DNA of 28,767 nucleotides from a virus. Positions 3,214 to 28,767 of this stretch are shown one piece after another. The notes beneath the pieces are model-generated. The model had not been told where the DNA came from, searched no databases, and worked only from the letters and a program-made list of their open reading frames with translations. The position numbers and the translations under genes were made by a program. Each line of letters starts with the position of its first letter. Within the stretch, counting starts at the first letter, position 1. The stretch covers positions 1-28,767 of IMG/VR virus record IMGVR_UViG_3300025086_000161, one strand, 5' to 3'.

Positions 3214-3409
3214 TATAGGTAAAGACTATAAAAACGACGCTATGCATTACGCTGTTGGTCAAGAAGTTTATGGGGGTCATACTATTTGTGATATAATAGA
3301 AGAAGACGAGAAGTACTCTATTTATATTAAAAAGAAGAAAGATGTTTTACCGTGGAAAGACTTTAACAAAAACATGGCTGTTTCTGTAGAATATAACCTA
3401 GAGTACTAA
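3188..3409 (+). CDS. Small beta-rich protein (73 aa), unknown function
   Basis: The frame begins inside the end of the coiled-coil gene (26-base overlap) and ends in a TAATG that starts the next gene. Residues 1-14 are basic (MAKLIRKISIGKDYK). The middle contains A-V-G-Q-E-V-Y-G-G-H-T-I-C-D-I-I and then K-Y-S-I-Y-I-K-K-K-K, giving a small strand-turn-strand barrel reminiscent of SH3-like folds. I prefer the ATG at 3188 because the IRKISIG opening looks like an integral first strand. The in-frame Met at 3242 would remove it. No catalytic motif is visible. Confidence 0.62.
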   Translation: MAKLIRKISIGKDYKNDAMHYAVGQEVYGGHTICDIIEEDEKYSIYIKKKKDVLPWKDFNKNMAVSVEYNLEY

Positions 3410-3990
3410 TGAAAAGCGTTCACAACTTTGTTGTAACGCCAAAAGGAGATAGATACAACAATACTAAAAAGATTGGAGATTCAGAGTTAATACTTAACAC
3501 TGAAATCTTCAATCATCAATATGTTAATAGAGAAGCTATTGTTATATCAACTCCTATTGTTGGTGATACAGATGTTAAACCTGGAGATACAGTTATAGTG
3601 CATCATAATGTTTTTCGTAGATGGCATGACGTTAAAGGTGTAGAAAAAAATAGTAAAAGCTATTTTAATGAATCTACATACTTTATAAATAAAGATCAAA
3701 TATTCTTATACAAAAGAAAAAATAGCTGGGTAGCTCCAAAAGGTTATTGTTTTATAAAACCTTTAAAAGCCGTAGATAAGTTTAATGTTGAAACTGAAAA
3801 ACATCTACAAGGTATTGTTAAGTATTCAGACGGTACAGTGGAGGTTAACGATCTAGTTGGTTTTAGGCCAAATAGTAAATATGAATTTATAGTTGACAAC
3901 GAAAGACTATATAGAGTTTTATCTAATTTTATTACAATTAAATATGAATATCAAGGAAACGAAGAAGAATATAATCCAAGCTGGGCATAA
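3409..3990 (+). CDS. Beta-barrel protein with possible GroES-like halves (193 aa)
   Basis: Residues ~40-65 contain A-I-V-I-S-T-P followed by D-V-K-P-G-D-T-V-I-V-H-H-N-V-F-R, the 'x-P-G-D-x-V-x-[VF]' hallmark of Cpn10-type and related barrels. A second, weaker unit near residues 130-175 (L-Q-G-I-V-K-Y-S-D-G, V-N-D-L-V-G-F, then L-Y-R-V-L-S-N-F-I-T-I-K-Y) ends like the GroES closing strands. I therefore suspect two GroES-like barrels or one elaborated barrel. That would be notable because a separate GroES-like gene lies at the left edge. The protein is Lys/Tyr/Asn-rich, has no signal peptide and ends NPSWA. Its last 47 bases overlap the next gene in another frame. Function unproven; a chaperone or assembly role before the packaging genes is an inference. 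Confidence 0.6.
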   Translation: MKSVHNFVVTPKGDRYNNTKKIGDSELILNTEIFNHQYVNREAIVISTPIVGDTDVKPGDTVIVHHNVFRRWHDVKGVEKNSKSYFNESTYFINKDQIFLYKRKNSWVAPKGYCFIKPLKAVDKFNVETEKHLQGIVKYSDGTVEVNDLVGFRPNSKYEFIVDNERLYRVLSNFITIKYEYQGNEEEYNPSWA

Positions 3991-14808: not shown

Positions 14809-17800
14809 ATGCCAGAGATTAAGAATACTTTTGTTAGAGGTAGAATGAACAAAGACCTCGACGAAAGAATTATTCCAAAAGGAGAATATAGAGATGCAAT
14901 GAATATACAGGTTGGAACTTCTGAAGGTTCTGACATTGGTACCGTACAAAATATATTAGGTAATCTATCTGTCGAAAACATTGTTCCCGATAAGTGTAAA
15001 TGTATTGGTACTGTTGCTGATGAAAAAAATAATAAAATATATTGGTTTGTTAAAAGAGAATATTCACCTGATCACATAAACTTTGAGGCTATAATAGAAT
15101 ATTCATCTGAACTTGGACCTGTCCCGATTCTGGTTGACACCAAAATAAATACTGCGGACGCGGTATTAAAATTCCCTGAAAAAATTATTACTGGTATTAA
15201 TATTATAGATAATTTATTATTCTGGACTGATGGTGTAAATGAACCTAGAAAAATAAATATAGATCAATGCAAAAAAGGTAGTGTAGATTTACAAACACAT
15301 ACTCAATTATCTAATGACTTTGGTGGTTTTGATGGTTTAGCCATTAACACCGTTGGTTTATTTCAAGATGATAATGGAGATGAGTTAGGAAATATGGTTA
15401 CTACTCTTGATGATTCACAAGTAACATCAGGAAGGTATATGTATTTTGAAAAAGATCAATTTGATAAATTATTTGATCACGAGGTTGTTCATAATACTCC
15501 AGGAAGTACGTCGGAATTAACTGAAGAAGGAAATATACATCCTATTCGTCAATATAGAGATGGTGAGTTTTTAGGTTTAATCTATGTTAAGGTTTGGAAT
15601 ACTGGTGGTGGAAACGGTATGCATGCTAGAAGAACCGCTTATGATCAACCAGCAAATTGGTTTGCGAGAAACAGACAATTTAAAGTTGGTGATATAGTTT
15701 TTGGAGATAATATAACAAGAGATATTAAAGAGGAAAATATTACTGTTATAAGAAAATCCCCAAGCACAAAGTTAAATATAAAAATAAATACCACCCAAAA
15801 TAAAAATAAAGAACCTTTATTTGAAAAAATATTCCCTAGATTTTCATATAGATATAAATATAATGACAATGAGTACTCAACATTCGCTCCTTTTACAGAC
15901 GTAGTATTTAATCCTGAGCATAAAGAAAACTTTAGTTTAGATAGTTCGTACGATGTAAAAGAACCGTACAATACTTCAATGCTTAACGTTATTGATTCAA
16001 TTGAATTAACAGATTTTATTAATCCTGATATTGATGAAAACGTAAAGCAAATAGATATTTTATATAAAAAAGAAGACTCTCCAGTTATATATTCTATAGT
16101 TAGTTTAAAGAGAGAAGATAAAGAGTGGTATGAGTTTGGTTCTGGACAACAAAATGATGTTGGTTATGTAAATACACCTTTACCTGGTGGTTTAACTGGT
16201 AGTGGTAAACCAGGTGTTTTTGGTGGTTTATTTAGAGGTAAATATATTGTTAACTCTGAAAACATTAGTAACGCTCTTCCTGAAAATCAATTATTAAGAC
16301 CGTGGGATGCTGTTCCTAGAAAAGCATTAGCACAGGAAATAACAGGTAATAGAATTGTATATGGTAATTACGTTCAAGGTTATAAGTTAGATACTGTGAT
16401 ACCATCTTTACTAGCGGATTACAAACCTAGAACAACGTATAGTCTACCTAATTCTAATTTTGATTCCAGTGCTTTACCATCTATAAAATCTCAAAGAAAT
16501 TATCAACTAGGAGTTGTTTTTGGAGATAAATATGGAAGAGAAACACCGGTGTTTACATCTAGTAAAAGTGCTGTATCAATACCATGGAGAAGTAATCGTG
16601 GTACTTTAACAGCGACTCAAGCGAATCAAATTGAAGTAAAGCTAGAGAAAGATCCACCAAACTTTGCTGAATATATAAAATATTTTATAAAAGAAACCTC
16701 TGGAGAATATTATAATTTAATAATGGATAAGGTTTATGTTCCTGCAGATATAACTCCAATAGAAACAAAGCGTCATCTTTGGCTTTCTTTCCCTTCCTCA
16801 GAAAGAAATAAAATAGATGAGGATGATTATTTAATACTAAAAAAGAAAATTGGATCTGGAGAAACACAGATGCAAGACAAAAATAAATTTAAAATTCTTG
16901 ATATAAAAAATGAAGCGCCTGATTTTGTAAAATATGAATACGCTTTATTAGCAGAGCTAGACCAAACGTCTGACGGTGGTACTACATATTTAAGCAATTT
17001 GTTTAACACTCCTAAAGGTCGGTTGAAAGAAGATAATACTTTGATAATAATAAATAAATCTGAATTTCATGGTCAATCAGCTGTAAGATGGGGATTTAAT
17101 GACATTGGAGATAAAGGTGTTAAAAATTATCTTATTGATAATTTATACTTATCTTGGTTTAGAGCTACTGGTACTGACGCTGGTTTAAGCTCTAATAAAT
17201 ACAAAATAATAGATATATTAACAAATGCAAATGATTATCTTTTTACCTTAGACAAACCTATTAGTGAAAGAGATGCAAAAATTAGTAACCAAGGATCTGG
17301 ATCAACAAATGCTTGGCCAGATTGTGGTATAAGATTTGAAAAAAGAAAAGAAAGAAACTTAGAGTTGTTTTCTGGTAAGTTTTTTGTTAAAGTTATAAGT
17401 GAACCAGTTGTTTATGGCGATATATTAGATGATACTTCTTTGTTAAATAAATTTGTTTGGACTTCAAGAAGAACGACTTTTTGGTCAGCAGACGCTATAA
17501 ATAATGTCGATAAACATGCAGATGATGGTATTATAAACGCTTATAATTATGCAGCGCCTGTAGGTTCTGGTGATTCTCCTGAAGAACTTCATGGTGAAAA
17601 AGTAACCGCCGCTCAAGCTAATTGGCAAAGTATAATAGATAACATGGGAGATGGATCTCCTGATGTATTTTTTATCGATAACATGTTTATGATAGCGGGG
17701 CAGATATCCGATAATAATTATGCTAAAAACTCAGGGCAAATTTGGACGGGTAATCTAGAAACACATCAAAAACAAGCGGTTTGGGTTGGTAGAAGTTTAG

Positions 17801-20800
17801 ATAATTTATTTAATGTAGACGCGGGTAGCGCTGTTGGTGAAAATGATATTGCAAATATAGATTATTACGTTGGTAATCCCGATTGGGAGCAAAGCACTGG
17901 TTTTGGTTGGAAGTTTTTTAATTGGACTCGTCCTTGGAAACAAGCTGCTGACGCTACTCTTAGAACTCAAGATATTAATGGTTTAGAAGGAATAATAGAG
18001 ACACAAGATATGCACGTTGGTAACTATGATTTAGATTCACTTGATAATCTAGGTTACGGATCTGGTATAAGAAGATGGAAAAGTGAACTTATGCCAGGAG
18101 CGGGTATGGCTGGCTCTGAAAACAATTTAGATTATACTTATGGTAAAGAAACTGGTAAGTTTTATATGCACTTATCCTTTTTAGCGCCAGGTGAAGATTT
18201 AGTTACTGATATGAGTGGAATGGGTGATTCTATATATGGTCCTAATTCAGTTGCTAAAGGTTTACAAGGTGTTTGGGGAGGTGGATTAATAGGTAGTAAT
18301 GATGGTGATGTGTTTAGCCATCATCATAGAGTTATACCTATGGAGGGTAAATATCCTATAGATGAAAATGACGATGGTAGTGAACCACCAGGACCAGGAG
18401 TACCAAATTCTTTTGGTTATGACGAAAAATATAGAGCGAGACATGAAAACCAATGGAATCCATGTTGGCCAAGTGATCCGGGAGGTAAAATAAGAGAGTT
18501 TATAGACAATATAAGGCCAGGTAGTAAATTTAAGTTTGGACTTGATACTAGTAACACTATATATACTATAAAAAAAGTATCTATAAAAAAATTATATAAC
18601 CATACGCCTTGGAAGTATAGGGCTATGTGGAATGGTACTAATGGTAATATGGATACCATAGCAAACCCAAGTGTTTGGAATAAAGGAAATGTTTGGGCTG
18701 ATACTTTAGATGCTAACGGTACTAATGGAAACGCTACAAAGTTATATAGTTTTAAAGATTCTATTGTTCGTTTTGGTAAGAAAAACAATAGAAGATTGTG
18801 TTATATTATAGAGTTAGATAAAAACCCAAGAGACAACAATACTTTTAATCCAATGGACGGTACGAGCATGGATCTTGACACTGGTACTGCTATTCAATTT
18901 TTAGCCCAAGCTAGTAGTTTTATAGAATTAGACGCTGAAAAACCTATTATCTGGGAAACAGAAGCAAAAAAATCTGCTGATATAGAGATATATCACGAGG
19001 CTAGCGATCCAATACCAACAAAAATAACGGTTAAAACAAACGAAATGTTTGCACCTGTAGGATGTTATGTAGAAAATCTAGGAAAAGAAAATATGGGTGA
19101 TCCTTTTTATCAGGTTAATCAATCATCTAGAAGCGTGTTAAAAAGATGGATAGACGATACTACATTTGAAATAATACCTGGTTTTAAATATGGAGTGTTT
19201 GGGGTTACACCTACAGAAGAAGTTGATTATTCTAATTATAAATTTAAGTTTATAAGAAAAGATGGTAGTTACACTGTTGGAAGGCTAGCTGCTCAACCTT
19301 CAGATCCTGGTAATACTCTTGGGCTACAAGATTCTGGAGGTAGTTATACTGGTGGTACAAGAACTATATTCACTATAAGCTCGGATGTTGGTAGCGATTT
19401 AGAAACAGGTTTAAGCTGGTATAATTGTTTTTCTTTTGGAAATGGTTTAGAATCTAATAGAATACAAGATGGTTTCAATGAAATGCAAATTACAAATGGA
19501 CCTGTTGTATCTTCAACTATAGATACAGATTATACGGAAGAAAAAAGAACTAGTGGTTTAATTTACTCTGGTTTATATAATTCTAATAACGGTATAAATA
19601 ATTTAAATCAATTTATTACAGCTGAAAAAATAACTAAAGATTTAAATCCTACATATGGTAGTATTCAAAAACTATATCAAAGGAGAGTTGGTTTGGTTGC
19701 TTTTTGTGAAGATAGAATAGTAGATATAGTAGCTGGTAAAGACACTCTATTTAACGCTGATGGTAATCCACAGTTAGTTGCATCAAATAAAGTTTTAGGT
19801 ACCGCAACTCCTTTTGTTGGTGACTTTGGTATATCGCAAAATCCAGAGTCATTTGCTTCAGAATCATATAGAGCTTACTTTACAGATAAACAAAGAGGAG
19901 CTGTTTTAAGGCTTTCTATGGATGGCTTAACACCAATATCAGATATAGGTATGACTGATTGGTTTAGAGACAATCTAGTAACGCCTAACGAGCTTATAGG
20001 TACATACGATGAGTATAAGAAAGAATACAACTTAACATTAAAATCAGATTTTAGCGAAAACTTATTAAGAAACTCAAATATAAGTGAGGGCGAAGATTTA
20101 ATAAACTTAACTACAGCCCCTGTAAATTTAATAGATAATGCTAATCCAAATAACTACACACCTTTAGTTACTCCAGATTTAAACACAGATGACTCAGTTG
20201 ATAATATGATGAGTTACAACCAGCGTCACTTTGCACAGCAAACAGAAGTTATAAATCATACTGCTATTCCCGAAGGGTTCTTTCAACCAGCTGTTGATGG
20301 TTATGCTGCTATGCCTACAATACCAAACAATTATCTTAATACTGCTGGTAGTGCAAGTGGTTATTTTACAAAAACACCAAAAACTTTAATTGAGTTGACG
20401 TTTCCATCTCAACGAACTGGAGTAGATCATACTATTTTATCAAACGTATGGCGCGATAGTAGTGGTAATCCAGATCCTTATGGATATGAAGGTGGTCCTT
20501 TTAGAGATATAAATCCTGGTACACTAACCGATCAAGGAGGATGGATTTTATCAAGATCAGTAGGTGAATTTTGGAATACTACCGCGAGTACGCCTCCACA
20601 ATCAACTAATCAAATGTGGAGTTTAACTAATGGACCTCATAGTACTCTTAGTTTAGCTCCTTATGGATCAGCTGGATACACCACAACAGGTGTTGGCTCA
20701 ACTTATAAACGTTATTTATCACAGTATGCAAGCGGAAGTGATGAGTATGGTTTTGCGGGTTTAGGTGTTGGTAGCGACGGTAATAACTCCGACTCGCTAG

Positions 20801-23800
20801 CAACTCAAGTAACTAATGAGGTCGCGCAGTTTTACGAAATGTTTATTGGTGTAAAACATAATTTGAGTAGGGGTAGATTAATTATTCCTGAAAAACACGA
20901 AACAGGATCTTTTCCTACAGATCAAGTGCCCGCAGATATTTTAGCTTGGGGTCCTGGAAACTTATATTGGGAAGCCACTAAAAATACACCGAATGATCTT
21001 TATTCAAATTCTACTTCACAAACAAACGTAAATAACATTCAAGATTGGAGCATGGCTACTAATTTAAGTATATTTGCTGGAGAAGAAATAAAAGTTACGC
21101 TAGTCTGCAATCTACCACAGGGACTTAGTTGTAATGTTTATCCAGAGGTTTCTATTAATTCATCTTCCGTGCGACCGTATAAGTTTGCTGCTTTTGGTAA
21201 CCCTTCTTCTGCTATAGCTGATGGTTATTTTGGAAGCGGTTGGCAAAACAGCAATGGTAACACCATGGGTTTTAGTAACAACGCTGGTTTTACTGAATAT
21301 GCTAACAACCCAGAAGGTCATGAGTGGGCTAGTCAAAGTAATAACACAAATGGATCTTCTAACCACTATGGTAGTAGCGCTTTTCCTGGTACTTTTTCTA
21401 ATCATGGGGCTGTTTCAGGACATCGTGGTTTTCAAGCTAGTTCATTTGTAAAGCTTCCTCGAACAAGAACAACTTCTGCTGGTCCATATTATGGATGGAG
21501 ATTAGTAAATGCTGGTGGGCCTGGTAATGGAAGCACTGAAACAACTCGAGCTACATTTACTTTTTACTGGAAATTTTTAGCTGATGGCGTTAATACAGGA
21601 GATATAACTGATGGTCTTAATACGGATGGTGGAGGAGATTTAACAGGACAAGCTAGTTTACTATTTGAGAACTTAAAATTAAAAGTTCAAAATAAATCTT
21701 GGTCTAATGCTGATGAAGGTGGTTTTAATCTTGATTATTTTAAAGTGGAAAAAGTGTATAGTTTAACTTCGCATTTTCAACCTGATGTTCCTGCTGGAGA
21801 TGAACAACTAGCAATACCACAAAGTGATGTACCGGCTTGGGCTGAAGTTAAAAACACGTTAAAATATGATAATTGGACTTACACGGGCGTTGATGTTAAG
21901 TATAGTTCTGATAAATTTCTATGTAACCAGAGCGTTACAGCGCACGGTCCAGACAATCCAGCTGGACCTACTAATAGTGCTACTAGTGTTTCAAACAATA
22001 TAAATGTACCGTTTTCTGGACAAACATATACTTGGTATACGCCAGTAGCGCAAGATACTAGTATTGATGGAACAAGCGGTTTAACAGTCGGGTCTACCGC
22101 ATACGGTGATTATGATATAACAAACCACGGGGGTACTGGTAGTGGCATGGTTACTGCTTACACTAATCCTTCTGGAGTTACTATTGAAAATGAGCACGTG
22201 GTTATTGGCCACGGTAGCACTGGAGATGTTTATATTAACACTACTAGCGCTGGTACTGTGAGTGGGTTTGCTGGTGGTGTTTGGGTTGATGCTAATTTTA
22301 GTTCGAATTCAAATATGGACCCTATGCAAACAACTGATAAGTGGTTAATGATAGATGTTATAGCTAAACCTATTTCAGGTGCACCTGCAGTTCCGAGTGC
22401 AATCAGCACTGGTATTTTAGTTAGAGGTTTAATTGACCCAGCTGTTACGAGTACAGATACTAACACTGGTACTTATTGGGGAGCAGACTTTTTTGCTAGT
22501 AATCTTCCTTATGGTACTTTTGGCACGGCAAATCAGTATAGCACTGGAAATCCAACTGTTGGTACTGATAGGGGGCTAATACTACTTAGGCCAGCTGATT
22601 TTCCATTATATAACAATATGCACGGAGGTGACTTACTAGGAATACAAAGTAATGGTTATCTCGGTGCTGTACCATCTGGATATCAACTTTTTAGAGCTGT
22701 TGTTAAAGTAAACGCGAATAGTTATAATGGATATAATTCTAGCAATAGATTCTTAATGCAATTTTTTAACTTTGAAGGTCTTGTAAAATTAATTAACGTT
22801 AGAGATATTTCTCAAGTACAAACAGGTGGTGTACCTACTAATTGGGATTGGGATGATGTGAATGGTAACATGCAAACAAATCAATGGCAAACCGCAACGC
22901 CAACTACTAGTTGGAACCACCCTGAGTATGGAGGTGGAGACGGTGCTCTAGTAGTTAATAGCATACATAGAAAAAGAATGTATGTAGAAAACGGTAAATT
23001 TAAGTTTAGAGATACTACGGCTCCAGGACAAGTTTTACATCAAAGTTTTACTAATGATCACTCTGCGCCTTTTGACTTATTACCAGCGCAAGATAATTAT
23101 GAGTTTAATGTTAAAATAGAAAACCACAATGGTGATATTGTTTATTTTCAATTAAGAAGTAAATTATTTATGCCTGATAGTCAGGGTACTCAAAATGCAG
23201 AAGGGTATAATTTAAAAATGTATTTTGATGAAGATGGAGAGTATAAGGTTAGGTTTAATCTTACAGAAGGTGCTCCATTAATAACATCAATTGAGCGTAA
23301 TAACAATTTTTACACTCCAAATACAGATCCGGTAATAGAACAACATCCAGACGTAGATTATCAAAATAGTTTACGTATACATAATAAAAATTATCATCCT
23401 ACTTTCACAGTTGTACCTTTAACATGTGACATTTCTCAAATAAGGTTAGTTGATACTTCAAATATTATAATTGGTGGTTCTGTAGATTTTTGGGAATTCA
23501 CAGGGTTTGACCTAACAGATGATGATTATATATATTTTGAAAATGAAGAAATAGTTTTAAACTCTGCGCCTGATTATACTGATATAAGGCAAGTTATAAA
23601 TAAGCACGTTGCATTAGATAGTAAGTATAGAATTAGATTTAACGCTGATATAGCAGATGGAAAAATAAGAGCTTATTATTTTAATAGTAATGGAGATGGA
23701 TTTGTAACACCTATAATAGATAATACAAATAGTGGTTATTATGATAGTATTCACACAATTGGAGAAGAGATATCTAGTAGTGGTAATGTTTCTAATCCAC

Positions 23801-24588
23801 TTAAAAATACTTTTGTTATTGAGATTATAGATGGTGAGGGTAGTGTCACCGGAACTTTAGATAATTTTTCAATGCAAAGAGTTATAGAGTTTTCACCTCA
23901 AACACTTTCTTTTAGTGAAAAAACAAAAGGTTGGGTAAGTTTTAAATCTTTTACACCTGAAAATGGAGTTAGTTTAGCAAAACAGTATTATACCATGAAT
24001 GGTGGTCATTTATTTCAACACCATGCTAATGAAACTAGAAATCAATTTTATAATGAAGCTCACGAAGAAATAATAGAATCATCTGTTACTATGATTTTGA
24101 ACCAAGAACCTTCTTTAATAAAAACATTTAACACTTTAAATTACGAGGGCACGCAGTCACAAATATATAGGTATGATAATAATCATGTAGAGGGTACTAT
24201 TGAAACATATAATACTACGGTATCAGCTGAGGCAGCTCTTAGGTTTCCATACCCTACATTTGACCCTAATCCATATGCAAAACTAGGTTGGTATGTTAAT
24301 TCTATAGAAACAGACAAGCAGTCTGGTAGTGTTAAAGAGTTTGTAGAGAAAGAAGGCAAATGGTTTAATTATATAAAAGGAGACAATACTATAATTGACA
24401 CGGGGCAGTTTAGCTTCCAAGGATTAGGAGTAGCCATAAATGTTACGGCGAGTAGTGGAAGCTCTACTACTAGCGGTGGTGGCGGTGGAAATGGTGGTGG
24501 AAATGGTAACGGAAATGGTGGTGGAAATGGAGGTGGAAATGGCGGTGGAAATGGCGGTGGAAATGGCGGTGGAAATGGAGGTTATTAA
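14809..24588 (+). CDS. Giant tail stabilization-type protein with a ~1290-residue insertion (3259 aa)
   Basis: Residues ~12-30 read RMNKDLDERIIPKGEYRDA, followed by N-I-Q-V-G-T-S-E-G-S-D-I-G-T-V-Q-N-I-L-G-N, the opening of the tail stabilization proteins I associate with crAss-like and related short-tailed phages. Next comes the propeller-like run C-I-G-T-V-A-D-E-K-N-N-K-I-Y-W-F. The conserved N-part seems to run to DEYKKEYNLTL (residue ~1744). The conserved C-part resumes at TLSFSEKTKGW (~3032-3042) with GWYVNSIETD at 3160-3169 and KEGKWFNYIKG at ~3181-3191. Between them (bases ~20041-23904) lies Gly/Ser/Asn-rich, jelly-roll-looking sequence, for example the module starting at W2895. The end is a Gly/Asn repeat. 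It probably forms the tail hub and contacts the host surface. Nothing suggests a frameshift or a split gene. Confidence 0.8.
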   Translation: MPEIKNTFVRGRMNKDLDERIIPKGEYRDAMNIQVGTSEGSDIGTVQNILGNLSVENIVPDKCKCIGTVADEKNNKIYWFVKREYSPDHINFEAIIEYSSELGPVPILVDTKINTADAVLKFPEKIITGINIIDNLLFWTDGVNEPRKINIDQCKKGSVDLQTHTQLSNDFGGFDGLAINTVGLFQDDNGDELGNMVTTLDDSQVTSGRYMYFEKDQFDKLFDHEVVHNTPGSTSELTEEGNIHPIRQYRDGEFLGLIYVKVWNTGGGNGMHARRTAYDQPANWFARNRQFKVGDIVFGDNITRDIKEENITVIRKSPSTKLNIKINTTQNKNKEPLFEKIFPRFSYRYKYNDNEYSTFAPFTDVVFNPEHKENFSLDSSYDVKEPYNTSMLNVIDSIELTDFINPDIDENVKQIDILYKKEDSPVIYSIVSLKREDKEWYEFGSGQQNDVGYVNTPLPGGLTGSGKPGVFGGLFRGKYIVNSENISNALPENQLLRPWDAVPRKALAQEITGNRIVYGNYVQGYKLDTVIPSLLADYKPRTTYSLPNSNFDSSALPSIKSQRNYQLGVVFGDKYGRETPVFTSSKSAVSIPWRSNRGTLTATQANQIEVKLEKDPPNFAEYIKYFIKETSGEYYNLIMDKVYVPADITPIETKRHLWLSFPSSERNKIDEDDYLILKKKIGSGETQMQDKNKFKILDIKNEAPDFVKYEYALLAELDQTSDGGTTYLSNLFNTPKGRLKEDNTLIIINKSEFHGQSAVRWGFNDIGDKGVKNYLIDNLYLSWFRATGTDAGLSSNKYKIIDILTNANDYLFTLDKPISERDAKISNQGSGSTNAWPDCGIRFEKRKERNLELFSGKFFVKVISEPVVYGDILDDTSLLNKFVWTSRRTTFWSADAINNVDKHADDGIINAYNYAAPVGSGDSPEELHGEKVTAAQANWQSIIDNMGDGSPDVFFIDNMFMIAGQISDNNYAKNSGQIWTGNLETHQKQAVWVGRSLDNLFNVDAGSAVGENDIANIDYYVGNPDWEQSTGFGWKFFNWTRPWKQAADATLRTQDINGLEGIIETQDMHVGNYDLDSLDNLGYGSGIRRWKSELMPGAGMAGSENNLDYTYGKETGKFYMHLSFLAPGEDLVTDMSGMGDSIYGPNSVAKGLQGVWGGGLIGSNDGDVFSHHHRVIPMEGKYPIDENDDGSEPPGPGVPNSFGYDEKYRARHENQWNPCWPSDPGGKIREFIDNIRPGSKFKFGLDTSNTIYTIKKVSIKKLYNHTPWKYRAMWNGTNGNMDTIANPSVWNKGNVWADTLDANGTNGNATKLYSFKDSIVRFGKKNNRRLCYIIELDKNPRDNNTFNPMDGTSMDLDTGTAIQFLAQASSFIELDAEKPIIWETEAKKSADIEIYHEASDPIPTKITVKTNEMFAPVGCYVENLGKENMGDPFYQVNQSSRSVLKRWIDDTTFEIIPGFKYGVFGVTPTEEVDYSNYKFKFIRKDGSYTVGRLAAQPSDPGNTLGLQDSGGSYTGGTRTIFTISSDVGSDLETGLSWYNCFSFGNGLESNRIQDGFNEMQITNGPVVSSTIDTDYTEEKRTSGLIYSGLYNSNNGINNLNQFITAEKITKDLNPTYGSIQKLYQRRVGLVAFCEDRIVDIVAGKDTLFNADGNPQLVASNKVLGTATPFVGDFGISQNPESFASESYRAYFTDKQRGAVLRLSMDGLTPISDIGMTDWFRDNLVTPNELIGTYDEYKKEYNLTLKSDFSENLLRNSNISEGEDLINLTTAPVNLIDNANPNNYTPLVTPDLNTDDSVDNMMSYNQRHFAQQTEVINHTAIPEGFFQPAVDGYAAMPTIPNNYLNTAGSASGYFTKTPKTLIELTFPSQRTGVDHTILSNVWRDSSGNPDPYGYEGGPFRDINPGTLTDQGGWILSRSVGEFWNTTASTPPQSTNQMWSLTNGPHSTLSLAPYGSAGYTTTGVGSTYKRYLSQYASGSDEYGFAGLGVGSDGNNSDSLATQVTNEVAQFYEMFIGVKHNLSRGRLIIPEKHETGSFPTDQVPADILAWGPGNLYWEATKNTPNDLYSNSTSQTNVNNIQDWSMATNLSIFAGEEIKVTLVCNLPQGLSCNVYPEVSINSSSVRPYKFAAFGNPSSAIADGYFGSGWQNSNGNTMGFSNNAGFTEYANNPEGHEWASQSNNTNGSSNHYGSSAFPGTFSNHGAVSGHRGFQASSFVKLPRTRTTSAGPYYGWRLVNAGGPGNGSTETTRATFTFYWKFLADGVNTGDITDGLNTDGGGDLTGQASLLFENLKLKVQNKSWSNADEGGFNLDYFKVEKVYSLTSHFQPDVPAGDEQLAIPQSDVPAWAEVKNTLKYDNWTYTGVDVKYSSDKFLCNQSVTAHGPDNPAGPTNSATSVSNNINVPFSGQTYTWYTPVAQDTSIDGTSGLTVGSTAYGDYDITNHGGTGSGMVTAYTNPSGVTIENEHVVIGHGSTGDVYINTTSAGTVSGFAGGVWVDANFSSNSNMDPMQTTDKWLMIDVIAKPISGAPAVPSAISTGILVRGLIDPAVTSTDTNTGTYWGADFFASNLPYGTFGTANQYSTGNPTVGTDRGLILLRPADFPLYNNMHGGDLLGIQSNGYLGAVPSGYQLFRAVVKVNANSYNGYNSSNRFLMQFFNFEGLVKLINVRDISQVQTGGVPTNWDWDDVNGNMQTNQWQTATPTTSWNHPEYGGGDGALVVNSIHRKRMYVENGKFKFRDTTAPGQVLHQSFTNDHSAPFDLLPAQDNYEFNVKIENHNGDIVYFQLRSKLFMPDSQGTQNAEGYNLKMYFDEDGEYKVRFNLTEGAPLITSIERNNNFYTPNTDPVIEQHPDVDYQNSLRIHNKNYHPTFTVVPLTCDISQIRLVDTSNIIIGGSVDFWEFTGFDLTDDDYIYFENEEIVLNSAPDYTDIRQVINKHVALDSKYRIRFNADIADGKIRAYYFNSNGDGFVTPIIDNTNSGYYDSIHTIGEEISSSGNVSNPLKNTFVIEIIDGEGSVTGTLDNFSMQRVIEFSPQTLSFSEKTKGWVSFKSFTPENGVSLAKQYYTMNGGHLFQHHANETRNQFYNEAHEEIIESSVTMILNQEPSLIKTFNTLNYEGTQSQIYRYDNNHVEGTIETYNTTVSAEAALRFPYPTFDPNPYAKLGWYVNSIETDKQSGSVKEFVEKEGKWFNYIKGDNTIIDTGQFSFQGLGVAINVTASSGSSTTSGGGGGNGGGNGNGNGGGNGGGNGGGNGGGNGGGNGGY
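24475..24582 (+). repeat. 12-base tandem repeat encoding a Gly/Asn tail
   Basis: The unit GGAAATGGCGGT occurs three times perfectly at 24535-24570, a fourth copy has one change (24571-24582), and degenerate copies lie upstream. Residues 3223-3258 are almost only Gly and Asn, and the protein ends in Tyr. The unit is in frame, so slippage would lengthen or shorten the tail by four residues without disrupting the gene. Confidence 0.88.
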
Positions 24589-25906: not shown

Positions 25907-26242
25907 ATGGCAATAACAATAGAATTTAGTAATATATTAAACACCTCTTTACAAGTTGGAGATACAGCGTGGCACACCGCGGTGAGTCAAGTTGGGAGTC
26001 AAAATTATGCTTCTAATCCTCAACAAATAGGTGTAATAACCAGTATGACATCTAATTCAATTACAATAGATAGTGAAATGTCAGTACCTGCTTCTGCTGA
26101 TTTTATAATGTTTTCTAAAAATCAAACGGTAAACAATACTAGTTTATTAGGTTATTATGCTAAAGTAGAATTAAAAAACAATTCGTTAGAACATGCGGAG
26201 TTATTTGCTGTAAGCTCAGAGGTAGCTCCTAGTAGTAAATAA
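25907..26242 (+). CDS. Small beta-rich virion protein (111 aa)
   Basis: The protein has strands and turns throughout: S-L-Q-V-G-D-T-A-W-H at residues ~14-23, Q-I-G-V-I-T-S-M-T-S-N-S-I-T-I at ~41-55, and then D-F-I-M-F-S-K-N-Q-T-V-N-N and G-Y-Y-A-K-V-E-L-K-N-N-S, ending A-E-L-F-A-V-S-S-E-V. This architecture (small sandwich, 'QVGD' turn, 'FIMFSK' strand) is one I associate with short structural proteins in podovirus tail modules. It lies 9 bases after the preceding beta-rich gene and is followed by a hairpin region. Role inferred from context. Confidence 0.68.
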   Translation: MAITIEFSNILNTSLQVGDTAWHTAVSQVGSQNYASNPQQIGVITSMTSNSITIDSEMSVPASADFIMFSKNQTVNNTSLLGYYAKVELKNNSLEHAELFAVSSEVAPSSK

Positions 26243-26286: not shown

Positions 26287-26724
26287 ATGAATGATAGTAT
26301 AAAATTTAGATCTTTCAAAGAAGGTGATTATGAAATTTGTTGTAAATGGTGGGAATGGTGGTGGAGAAACGGGCAGGGTCCAGTGCCTAGAGCGTTTTTA
26401 CCAAAAGATGAAAGATGTTTTGTTATAGAAAAAAATAATATAGTTGTTGCTTGTTATTTTTTATTTATAATGGAACCACAAACAGTTGGTTGGGCTACTT
26501 ATTTAGTGTCTAATCCAAAGTATAAAGAAAAAGATAGAAAAAATCTAATAAAAACACTAATACAAAACGTAGAAAAAGAAGCTGAAAAATACGGTATTAT
26601 GCAGTTGTTTACAGTGTGTGGTGATAAACACATGTCAAAGTTACACGATGATTTAAATTGGATTATGATACCAGTAGAGCACGAAGGTTTTAAGTATTTA
26701 AAAAATAATATTACAAAAAGATAA
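26287..26724 (+). CDS. GNAT-fold acetyltransferase-like protein (145 aa)
   Basis: The order of elements fits the GCN5-related N-acetyltransferase fold. A first strand/helix (I-K-F-R-S-F-K-E-G-D-Y-E-I-C-C-K-W-W) comes before C-F-V-I-E-K-N-N-I-V-V-A-C-Y-F-L-F and then G-W-A-T-Y-L-V-S-N-P-K-Y-K-E-K-D-R-K-N-L-I-K-T-L. G-I-M-Q-L-F-T-V-C-G and a final L-N-W-I strand follow. GNATs use acetyl-CoA to modify amines. The usual pyrophosphate loop R/Q-x-x-G-x-G/A is not evident: the site reads KYKEKDRKN, so activity is uncertain. The protein may be a structural descendant or a divergent enzyme. It sits among virion genes, with the next ATG 3 bases after its stop. The Trp cluster near residues 21-26 is unusual. 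Confidence 0.68.
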   Translation: MNDSIKFRSFKEGDYEICCKWWEWWWRNGQGPVPRAFLPKDERCFVIEKNNIVVACYFLFIMEPQTVGWATYLVSNPKYKEKDRKNLIKTLIQNVEKEAEKYGIMQLFTVCGDKHMSKLHDDLNWIMIPVEHEGFKYLKNNITKR

Positions 26725-26726
26725 TT

Positions 26727-27767
26727 ATGGGTAAAAAAGCAAGAAGAAGACAGGCTGCTACTATGCGTGAAATGAACACTATGGCTCAAGAGCAGTTTGA
26801 ATATTTTCAAGAAAACCAAGAAGAGCAACAAGCTATATTAGATAAACAAAAACAAAATTTTAGAGATTTTCAATTTGAAAATCCTTTTGCTGATATAAAA
26901 AATCCATATGCTGATTTAAAAACAGAGTTTGAAAACCTTTACGAAGGTATGGAAAACCCATATGAAGATTTAACGGTAAACATGAGGGCTGCTGAGTTTC
27001 AAGCAGAACAAGGCGCACAACAAAGAGCAAATATACTTTCTAATTTACAAGGCGCTGCTGGTAGTTCTGGTATTGCTGGTTTAGCTCAAGCTTTAGCAAA
27101 TCAAGGCTCAGCACAAGCACAACAAATATCTGCTAACATAGCTCAGCAAGAAACAATGAATCAAAGATTGGCTGCTAGAGGTGCTCAACAAGTACAACAA
27201 ATGGAAACAGCTGGAGCTGAAAGAGCTAGAGCCTTAGGTATATCAAGAGAACAATTAGTTGCTCAAGGTGGTTTTAAAGCAGATGTATTAAGGCAGCAAG
27301 GCGCCGCAGCCGTTCAACAAGCTGAATTTGGTAGAGAATCTACATTATTAGGTATTGACTACGGATTACTAGCAGGCGCGAATCAAGCTGAACAACAAGC
27401 TATGGCTAATCAAATGTCTTCTATGGGTATGCAAGCAAATATGTATGGCTCGCAAGCAGCACAAGGGGCCAGTATGTTTAGTTCTATAGTTGGAGCTGCA
27501 GCAACGGTATTAGGTGGTCCTATTGGCGGGGCTGTAGCACAAAAAATAACTTCTTCTGATAGAAGATTGAAGAAAAATATAAATTTAATAGGTAAGTCGC
27601 CAAGCGGTCTTAATATATATTCTTTTGAATATAAAAATAATAATTTTGGTAACGGTACTTATCAAGGTGTTATGTCTAACGAAATACCTAAATATGCTGT
27701 AAGTAATAAAAACGGTTATGATATGGTTGATTATAGCATGATTGACGTTGAATTCAAACAAATATAA
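26727..27767 (+). CDS. Ala/Gln-rich protein ending in a peptidase S74 self-cleavage domain (346 aa)
   Basis: Residues 1-50 are basic then Gln/Glu-rich and helical. N-P-[FY]-[AE]-D-[IL] occurs three times, at N52, N59 and N77. Residues ~85-230 are Ala/Gln/Gly-rich helices, and ~237-272 are Ala/Gly hydrophobic (SSIVGAAATVLGGPIGGAVA). The C-terminus is the S74 (intramolecular chaperone) domain: SDRRLKKNI with the Ser277-Lys282 dyad (spacing +5, as in other S74 members) and then I-Y-S-F-E-Y, YQGVMSNEIPKYAV and V-D-Y-S-M-I-D-V-E. S74 domains trimerise a protein and then cut themselves off at the Ser. Most S74 domains are on tail fibres, whereas this body looks like an ejected or internal virion protein, so the combination is odd. 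The domain is short (~70 residues). Confidence 0.72.
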   Translation: MGKKARRRQAATMREMNTMAQEQFEYFQENQEEQQAILDKQKQNFRDFQFENPFADIKNPYADLKTEFENLYEGMENPYEDLTVNMRAAEFQAEQGAQQRANILSNLQGAAGSSGIAGLAQALANQGSAQAQQISANIAQQETMNQRLAARGAQQVQQMETAGAERARALGISREQLVAQGGFKADVLRQQGAAAVQQAEFGRESTLLGIDYGLLAGANQAEQQAMANQMSSMGMQANMYGSQAAQGASMFSSIVGAAATVLGGPIGGAVAQKITSSDRRLKKNINLIGKSPSGLNIYSFEYKNNNFGNGTYQGVMSNEIPKYAVSNKNGYDMVDYSMIDVEFKQI

Positions 27768-27769
27768 AC

Positions 27770-28767
27770 ATGGCAATAAAATTAACACAAGGAGCAGATT
27801 CAACGATAGTAACAGCAGCTACAAGAGCTGGTCTAGCTACATCGCCAAAAGATTACAGTAGTATTTTTGATTCTGTATCTGAAAGCTACGCTAAATCAAC
27901 AGAAGCGTCAGCAGAGGCTTGGGGTCAAATAGCTGGTACTATAGCTGTAGTAGGTGCTGAGTTACAAAAAAATGCAGAAGTATATTCTGATACTGCGCAA
28001 AGAATTTATAATGCTGGTGGTACTGAAGAGCTTGTTGACAGTATATATGATATAAAAGACGAGCTAAGTGCGCTTGGTACTTTTGGTGGTAAATTTGGTG
28101 ATAGAGAAACTAGAAGAAAAAGAAGCGAAATACTTGCTAGAAGAAATAAACTTTTTGCACAAATAGATGGTTGGGGTGAATCTTTAGAAGAAGCTTCTTT
28201 AGCTTCTAAAAACGGTTTGTTAGATTATAGTTTGATGGGTGGTGATGTTGAATTCGTTAACGCTATAATAGCTAGTAATACACCTAATAAAATTACAGGT
28301 GAAGGTAACAACGAGGCTAGAGTTAGTCGTGATCCACAAACTGGCGAGTTAATATATACATTACATGACATGAACTCTGGTGGCGCGGCAATACCTGGTA
28401 AAACAATGAGTTTATCTACTTTTAAAACAATTATACAAGATAGCGCTAAAGATGTAGATAATGTTACAGGTAAGTTTTTAAGCGGTGTAACTGATGGCGC
28501 GGAAAACATGGGTGCTACATACGGTGGTACTATGGATGAGTATCATAAAAACAAACTACTTGATTCTTTAGACTCAATGACCAGCAATGCCGCTACATTA
28601 AAAAGAGGTATGCGAACTAAATTCTCAGGTACATCTTTTTTTAATGAATTAACAGGTCCTAACCAAACAGAACTTAGTTCAAAATATTTTACTTTAATGT
28701 TAGAAGATATTGCTAACACAACTATTAATGAAGAAACAGGAAAAAAAGAAATTAAAGCAGACGCTTT
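27770..28767 (+). CDS. Large virion-type protein, 3' end cut by the window edge
   Basis: Starts at the ATG at 27770 (MAIKLTQGADSTIVTAATRA), two bases after the S74 gene's stop, and stays open for 332 codons to the last base. The first ~40 residues are Ala/Ser/Thr-rich. Residues ~45-75 (STEASAEAWGQIAGTIAVVG, then A-E-L-Q-K-N-A-E-V-Y) are helical and mildly hydrophobic. The next part is charged and helical (R-E-T-R-R-K-R-S-E-I-L-A-R-R-N-K-L-F). The Gly-rich N-terminus with A-E-A-W helices recalls internal or ejection proteins of short-tailed phages, and the gene order (after an Ala/Gln-rich protein) agrees. Domains beyond residue 332 are unknown. Confidence 0.72.
   Translation, partial: MAIKLTQGADSTIVTAATRAGLATSPKDYSSIFDSVSESYAKSTEASAEAWGQIAGTIAVVGAELQKNAEVYSDTAQRIYNAGGTEELVDSIYDIKDELSALGTFGGKFGDRETRRKRSEILARRNKLFAQIDGWGESLEEASLASKNGLLDYSLMGGDVEFVNAIIASNTPNKITGEGNNEARVSRDPQTGELIYTLHDMNSGGAAIPGKTMSLSTFKTIIQDSAKDVDNVTGKFLSGVTDGAENMGATYGGTMDEYHKNKLLDSLDSMTSNAATLKRGMRTKFSGTSFFNELTGPNQTELSSKYFTLMLEDIANTTINEETGKKEIKADA

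Follow-up and report, generated by a model that had tools for sequence, protein, structure and literature searches.

The 346-aa ORF near the end of the window, by which we mean the whole stretch of 28,767 nt analyzed here, is likely, judging from its sequence and that of its relatives, to encode the first ejection protein of a short-tailed phage with a C-terminal cassette that would cut itself off just before Ser277 (Table 1). The cassette is a short Peptidase S74 domain with an intact Ser/Lys dyad on a body rich in Ala and Gln, as the first-pass annotation had observed from the letters; it had missed the exchange of S74 for a Hint domain among relatives, the fused proteins linked to S74 and the missing C-terminal coiled coil. 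A wider proposition, for which we see about even chances, is that podophage ejection proteins possess one slot filled interchangeably by S74 or Hint, two unrelated self-removing folds with a predicted cut at about the same body residue, that the slot serves as a protein-level stop-start in fusions, and that this S74 is a minimal auto-protease with neither coiled coil nor beta-helix.

Table 1. Features of the ORF and its neighbors in window coordinates.
Feature	Coordinates	Strand	Remark
GNAT-like gene, directly upstream (T7 gp13 / P22 gp14 position)	26287..26724	+	Pfam 19.0 bits, cut-off 20.7
ORF, helical body plus C-terminal short S74 domain	26727..27767	+	346 aa
Body (residues 1-276), predicted to remain once the cut is made	26727..27554	+	homology to module-less proteins
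7-residue Asn/aromatic repeats, residues 52-83	26880..26975	+	
Hydrophobicity peak of the body (19-mer), residues 253-271	27483..27539	+	placement not kept across the family
Cassette interval	27519..27765	+	DNA homology to module-less L005 interrupted here
Peptidase S74 domain, short form (residues 277-346); bond before Ser277 predicted as scissile	27555..27764	+	
Ser277, predicted nucleophile	27555..27557	+	invariant in 80/80 (best 80 of 465)
Lys282, predicted general base	27570..27572	+	invariant in 80/80 (best 80 of 465)
Stop codon of the 346-aa ORF	27765-27767	+	
Following ORF, still open where the window ends; by position probably the next ejection protein	27770..28765	+	

The C-terminal stretch of the protein runs from SDRRLKKNI to DVEFKQI, and both codons of the dyad reported in SDRRLKKNI are intact. 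The start of the domain had been put at 27552, a codon that encodes Ser276; the domain itself is present, from Ser277. To avoid circularity we searched viral_contigs with a domain query lacking its first 11 residues and with them the dyad, which gave 465 confirmed relatives. Ser, Asp and Lys lie at fixed offsets in all of the best 80 of these 465, which are the sequences nearest to the window's domain, so that the conservation of the dyad speaks for this subfamily only. Among the 73 distinct domains the entropy is 0 bits at Ser and Lys and about 1 bit at +3 and +4; positions +0, +1, +5 and +8 are constant, +2, +3, +4 and +6 are variable, and positions -1 to -12 are unconserved at 3.3-3.7 bits each, which places a sharp conservation boundary at Ser. 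Further invariant residues of the domain are Asp, Ile, Tyr, Gly, Val and Tyr. The Ser-Lys spacing is also the same in 9/9 named phage loci, a weaker observation because the search pattern already contained the spacing. The last conserved strand is followed by 5 or fewer residues in 80/80 of the best 80 of 465, one of which ends three short; because the chain ends right after this strand, the C-terminal trimerizing coiled coil is absent.

The bodies of characterized S74 proteins are generally known to share beta-helices. In 78 of the best 80 of 465, the S74 domain follows a body with at least 22% Ala plus Gln, and the description of such a setting as uncommon holds only against the characterized S74 proteins, since 465 domain relatives and several isolates make up a large class. 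Ejection proteins are not the only carriers of the short form: L170 (831 aa) and L146 (300 aa) bear the same S74 domain on bodies of only 8% Ala plus Gln, which probably resemble fibres.

The isolated domain of the window protein reaches 21.4 bits with Pfam PF13884 (E 3e-4) and the whole protein 18.8 bits, against a curated cut-off of 22. Among 81 homologous domains, 47 are hit by PF13884 at E<=1e-3 (best 5.4e-13); L090, L190, L088 and L089 exceed the cut-off with 37-44 bits, and L189 and L191 fall below it. An AF2 model (34-sequence alignment) has a well-defined beta domain at residues 281-346 (pLDDT 92-97), and the S74 domain modeled alone reaches a mean pLDDT of 85.7. Eight predicted viral proteins (BFVD) match the domain model at E<=0.001, four of which are named intramolecular chaperone auto-processing (ICA) domain (E 2e-4 to 7.5e-4, TM 0.70-0.80); by these matches, the window's S74 domain is predicted to have the ICA fold. 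Taken together, the PF13884 matches in the subfamily, the AF2 fold and the ICA-named structural matches make the S74 assignment more than chance. BFVD also holds a match to the short S74 fold in A0A5J6VJJ1, a LysM-domain protein of a Megaviridae environmental sample (E 1.7e-5, TM 0.84). The best sequence match of the domain profile to solved structures is 3gud (E 0.0097), the neck appendage protein of phage GA-1, with which the profile aligns from its first residue. Among solved structures, neither the full model nor the S74 domain had a Foldseek match at E<=0.001, VIA-align over 311 chains gave mostly kinase lobes up to Z 3.1, which we take as chance, and a phmmer search of PDB sequences with the whole protein gave no match at E<=1. 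That 3gud or MyRF is missing from the structure comparisons is no evidence of a different fold. Weak Pfam matches of the window protein to DUF2477 and TFIIA were set aside as composition noise.

The view of the body as Ala/Gln-rich and helical rather than a beta-fibre is borne out: Ala and Gln make up 33% of residues 1-276, and AF2 predicts helices at 2-47, 87-109, 118-170 and 174-251 and no beta-fibre, with much of the body at low confidence (block pLDDT 36-90 up to residue 270). Homologs of the body include the module-less proteins (270-287 aa) of L003, L004 and L005. With a body HMM, 74 clear and 2 borderline S74-bearing proteins among the best 80 of 465 have a homologous body, and L123, L146, L157 and L170 have no match. 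At E<=1e-6 no control passed among 830 residue shuffles and 166 reversed bodies, and 5 of 498 shuffles in 7-residue blocks did (best 8e-9); because of these block shuffles, L094 (E 2e-7) and L142 (E 5e-8) are counted as borderline. The three N-P-[FY]-[AE]-D-[IL] motifs described before are found at residues 52, 59 and 77, as part of a looser 7-residue N-x-aromatic repeat with an extra copy at 70. Hint-bearing bodies have a median of 10 repeat copies, fused ones 8, module-less ones 3 and S74-bearing ones 2, and the maximum is 15. The variation in copy number was noted for the window, L172, L175 and L176, and AF2 leaves the repeat unstructured. The Ala/Gly hydrophobic segment proposed at about 237-272 has 44% Ala plus Gly, and the peak of the window body (mean Kyte-Doolittle 1.54) is the 19-mer in Table 1, but the family as a whole does not share such a segment: the 19-mer of highest hydrophobicity falls among the final 40 residues of 23/93 S74-bearing, 4/51 module-less and 3/7 Hint-bearing bodies. 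In view of these counts we rejected the idea that the module caps a hydrophobic C-terminal helix until assembly.

Gene order supports the suggestion that the protein looks like one that is ejected. The window, a 28.8-kb virus record, has terminase (phrog_6681) and portal (phrog_6547) genes. GNAT is above the Pfam cut-off in three of nine upstream proteins scanned, and three of the nine have no Pfam match; the ORF at 27770-28765 has no Pfam or PHROG match. Short S74 homologs lie downstream of an acyl/acetyltransferase gene in RHph_I3_18, ct7L0027, phiGT1 and pCB2047-A, and upstream of injection, ejection or internal virion proteins in H6/1, Vibrio phage 199E37-1, phiGT1 and phiM5. The phiGT1 record, in the part available, likens its own GNAT gene to P22 gp14 and T7 IVPA and flags the S74 of the next protein. 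In phiM5, phiM5_27 (L193 2834-4240) is followed by three proteins that carry internal virion annotations and, according to the record, was detected in the phage particle proteome. PHROG 4287 'DNA ejection protein' matches at 1.4e-6 with S74 included, and the body alone matches 0 PHROG families at E<=0.1; the ejection label thus rests on synteny and the half that contains S74. By gene order in named relatives, the ORF is in the first ejection-protein position (T7 gp14 / P22 gp7), and short-tailed phages probably inject this protein ahead of their DNA.

Elsewhere in the window, the 3259-aa ORF at 14809-24588 is a virion structural gene (phrog_14478). This ORF and the 111-aa ORF downstream of it (25907-26242) match the two ends of PHROG 18548 (profile 2-105 and 160-237), and by sequence they appear to be pieces of one family in two genes. 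The ORF at 3409-3990, just upstream of the terminase gene, matches PHROG 13932 co-chaperonin GroES (8.4e-17).

A body-based search of viral_contigs gave 167 confirmed loci, and in the best 80 of the 167 the C-terminus of the body occurs in four states: no module, a terminal S74, an S74 inside a long ORF, or a Hint domain. The close module-less relative L005 has a body 84% identical to that of the window, and DNA homology between the two stops at 27518 and resumes at 27766. The sister phages L125 (S74) and L175 (Hint), joined at 100 on a starred branch of the body tree, share DNA homology as far as L125 position 5883; it is lost over the module and returns from 6183 with 90% identity. S74 and Hint occur together in none of 102 S74 loci and none of 7 Hint loci, and neither was found elsewhere near the module-less genes in 51 loci of about 12 kb. 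From the end of the HMM match, the median distance is 17 aa to the stop (no module), 16 to Ser (S74) and 21 to Cys (Hint), medians with wide spreads, for example 12-33 and 6-28; in fused ORFs the median to Ser is 3 aa.

A search with the Hint domain of L008 found seven loci, two of them already in the body set, all with the domain at the C-terminus of an Ala/Gln-rich body; six of these seven bodies match the body HMM, the exception being L177. All seven Hint cassettes have an N-terminal Cys, the block B His (DxH) and a C-terminal Asn-Ser, with Val in place of the penultimate His. Because this His is missing, we call the cassette Hint-like rather than an intein. Its best solved matches are PI-SceI (0.002) and the bacterial intein-like (BIL) 2lwy (0.0033), Pfam Hint_2 gives 24.2 bits at best against a cut-off of 28.4, and its nearest isolate matches are phage helicase (UvsW) and terminase genes, which are known to bear inteins.

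The body tree comprises 125 bodies (69 with S74, 41 with none, 9 fused and 6 with Hint), thinned from 131 distinct ones, and was built by a quick method without mixture; 43 of its 122 inner branches are starred. At least 30 changes of state are needed on this tree, compared with a shuffled mean of 47.8, and the starred branches alone force at least 11 changes for S74, at least 14 for no module and at least 4 for Hint. The window is sister to the module-less L010, the same contig as L005 (97, starred). These sequences indicate that S74 is a cassette that is gained, lost or swapped for an unrelated intein-like Hint domain. Since it is gained, lost and exchanged, it is not required for the working of the body, which does without it over evolutionary time.

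Nine ORFs of 814-861 aa, one of them open-ended, consist of the body, S74 and a further part of about 450 aa. Searching with this last part gave 11 loci in the collection, the nine fused and two unfused; S74 with the dyad is at the joint in 9/9 fused ORFs, and none is found in 2/2 unfused (a one-sided Fisher's exact test would give P = 1/55, but the cases are few and related and belong to the one family tested). The unfused L050 and L075 are in separate starred groups of fused relatives on the body tree, which makes two events likely. The stop of L050 is 1 residue past the aligned predicted cut of L028, L034 and L051, and that of L075 is 1-2 residues past the aligned predicted cut of L032, L039, L046 and L053. 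L031 aligns end to end with L075, and internal gaps are needed with L050. In L187 (= L075) the second ORF begins with the last residues of an S74 domain, still retained there. A single 1185-aa ORF in MW202675 (L090) has an Ala/Gln-rich N-terminal part, then S74, then an SLT transglycosylase.

We infer cleavage, and likewise its timing and benefit, from these patterns. The S74 domain would fold and then cut the bond before its own Ser277 with the Ser277/Lys282 dyad, releasing a 70-aa fragment and leaving the 276-aa helical body, which would end about where its tail-less orthologs end by a stop codon; in the fused ORFs the cassette would separate the body from the next protein. With no C-terminal coiled coil, the cut would be made through other oligomer contacts or as a monomer.

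The alternative that survives best, unlikely as we hold it, is that S74 and Hint cleave themselves without benefit, as tolerated, self-removing, intein-like insertions kept active because the uncut protein is harmful. The patchy distribution on the 125 bodies, the precise cassette edges, the two unrelated folds in one place and the Hint relatives in intein-bearing genes would all fit this. Against it, the cassettes, of 70-130 aa, have no endonuclease or mobility gene that we could see, the nine fused ORFs seem to depend on S74, and S74 is far commoner than Hint.

It is still less probable that S74 remains on the helical body, as a chaperone of its assembly or a clamp of its oligomer, and that the dyad is kept for the fold and not for cutting. 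S74 is a known chaperone of trimers (in the parts available of PMC3742443 and PMC8326128), and as the other invariant residues are surely structural, Ser and Lys might be so too. Yet bodies 84-98% alike manage without S74 (the window and L005, L059 and L061), and so the body needs no chaperone; in addition, Hint occupies the same place, the fused ORFs split where S74 is missing, and the trimerizing helix is absent. Because S74, Hint and stop-start all end the body at about one place, a self-cleaving cassette fits better than a chaperone.

A docking or packaging tag for portal, scaffold or core proteins that is kept in the virion would fit the C-terminal placement and strong conservation of S74, but we consider it improbable: many close relatives lack S74, a non-homologous fold replaces it, and a tag would have no need for Ser and Lys right where conservation sets in. 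A tail fibre or tailspike identity, as given in the records of some homologs, is highly improbable given the predicted helical body, the place of the gene in named relatives between GNAT-like and internal or injection protein genes, and the internal virion proteins annotated after phiM5_27. The names in question, 'putative tailspike' for phiM5_27 and tail fibre domain protein for the vB_OspP_OH homolog, are apparently owing to the S74 domain.

A self-cleaving S74 cassette has several known counterparts. It shares with the classical ICA (Peptidase S74, PF13884; endosialidase NF, GA-1 3gud) the Ser-Asp-x-x-x-Lys start, the beta fold and the C-terminal placement, but it has 70 instead of about 120-130 aa, lacks the C-terminal coiled coil, and in close relatives is exchanged for Hint or absent. 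The beta-helical stalk of the classical trimeric ICA (endoNF, GA-1 gp12, MyRF) is not seen, the body being predicted as helical by AF2 at low to moderate confidence. T7 gp14 and P22 gp7 have the same gene position, between a GNAT-like gene and further injection proteins, although no body sequence match was found; neither is known to carry S74. The isolate proteins H6/1 gp17, phiGT1_17, phiM5_27, PAE2_13 and RHph_I3_18 share the Ala/Gln-rich body, the short S74 with the dyad and the gene position, with bodies too diverged for a whole-length match. S74 on ejection-position proteins is thus known already and annotated in isolates, for which we found no reported cleavage in the accessible parts of their sources. 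The Hint cassette of relatives shares Cys1, DxH and YDL...VNS with inteins and BIL domains, but has about 113 aa, has Val for the penultimate His, and closes off a virion protein, followed only by a short stub.

MyRF shares the Ser/Lys dyad (S587/K592; PMC8326128, in part) and an S74 in mid-protein that splits the chain in two, compared with L028 and L090, where the split is predicted. It differs in that its domain is placed after a triple beta-helix and needs the coiled coil, cleavage requiring a trimer held mainly by the C-terminal coiled coil (same part of PMC8326128). Cutting without a coiled coil would be at odds with this requirement, by analogy, and is the main uncertainty of our explanation. 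The S74-Hint exchange and the stop-start equivalence were not found in print, weak evidence of absence as the subscription literature was mostly outside our scope; the available parts of PMC10386132, PMC8954989, PMC10783043, PMC7139368, PMC3909814 and PMC11450229 do not treat S74 or Hint domains of ejection proteins.

If the proposed explanation is true, a short S74 on helical ejection proteins that can be exchanged for Hint would mean that what the phage needs (or tolerates) is the cleavage itself and not a chaperone. The current understanding of S74 auto-cleavage is that it controls the quality of trimeric beta-helical proteins. The short form would offer a minimal self-cleaving tag, a recurring annotation error, tailspike for ejection protein, would be corrected, and a maturation step would be added to the genome delivery of podophages.
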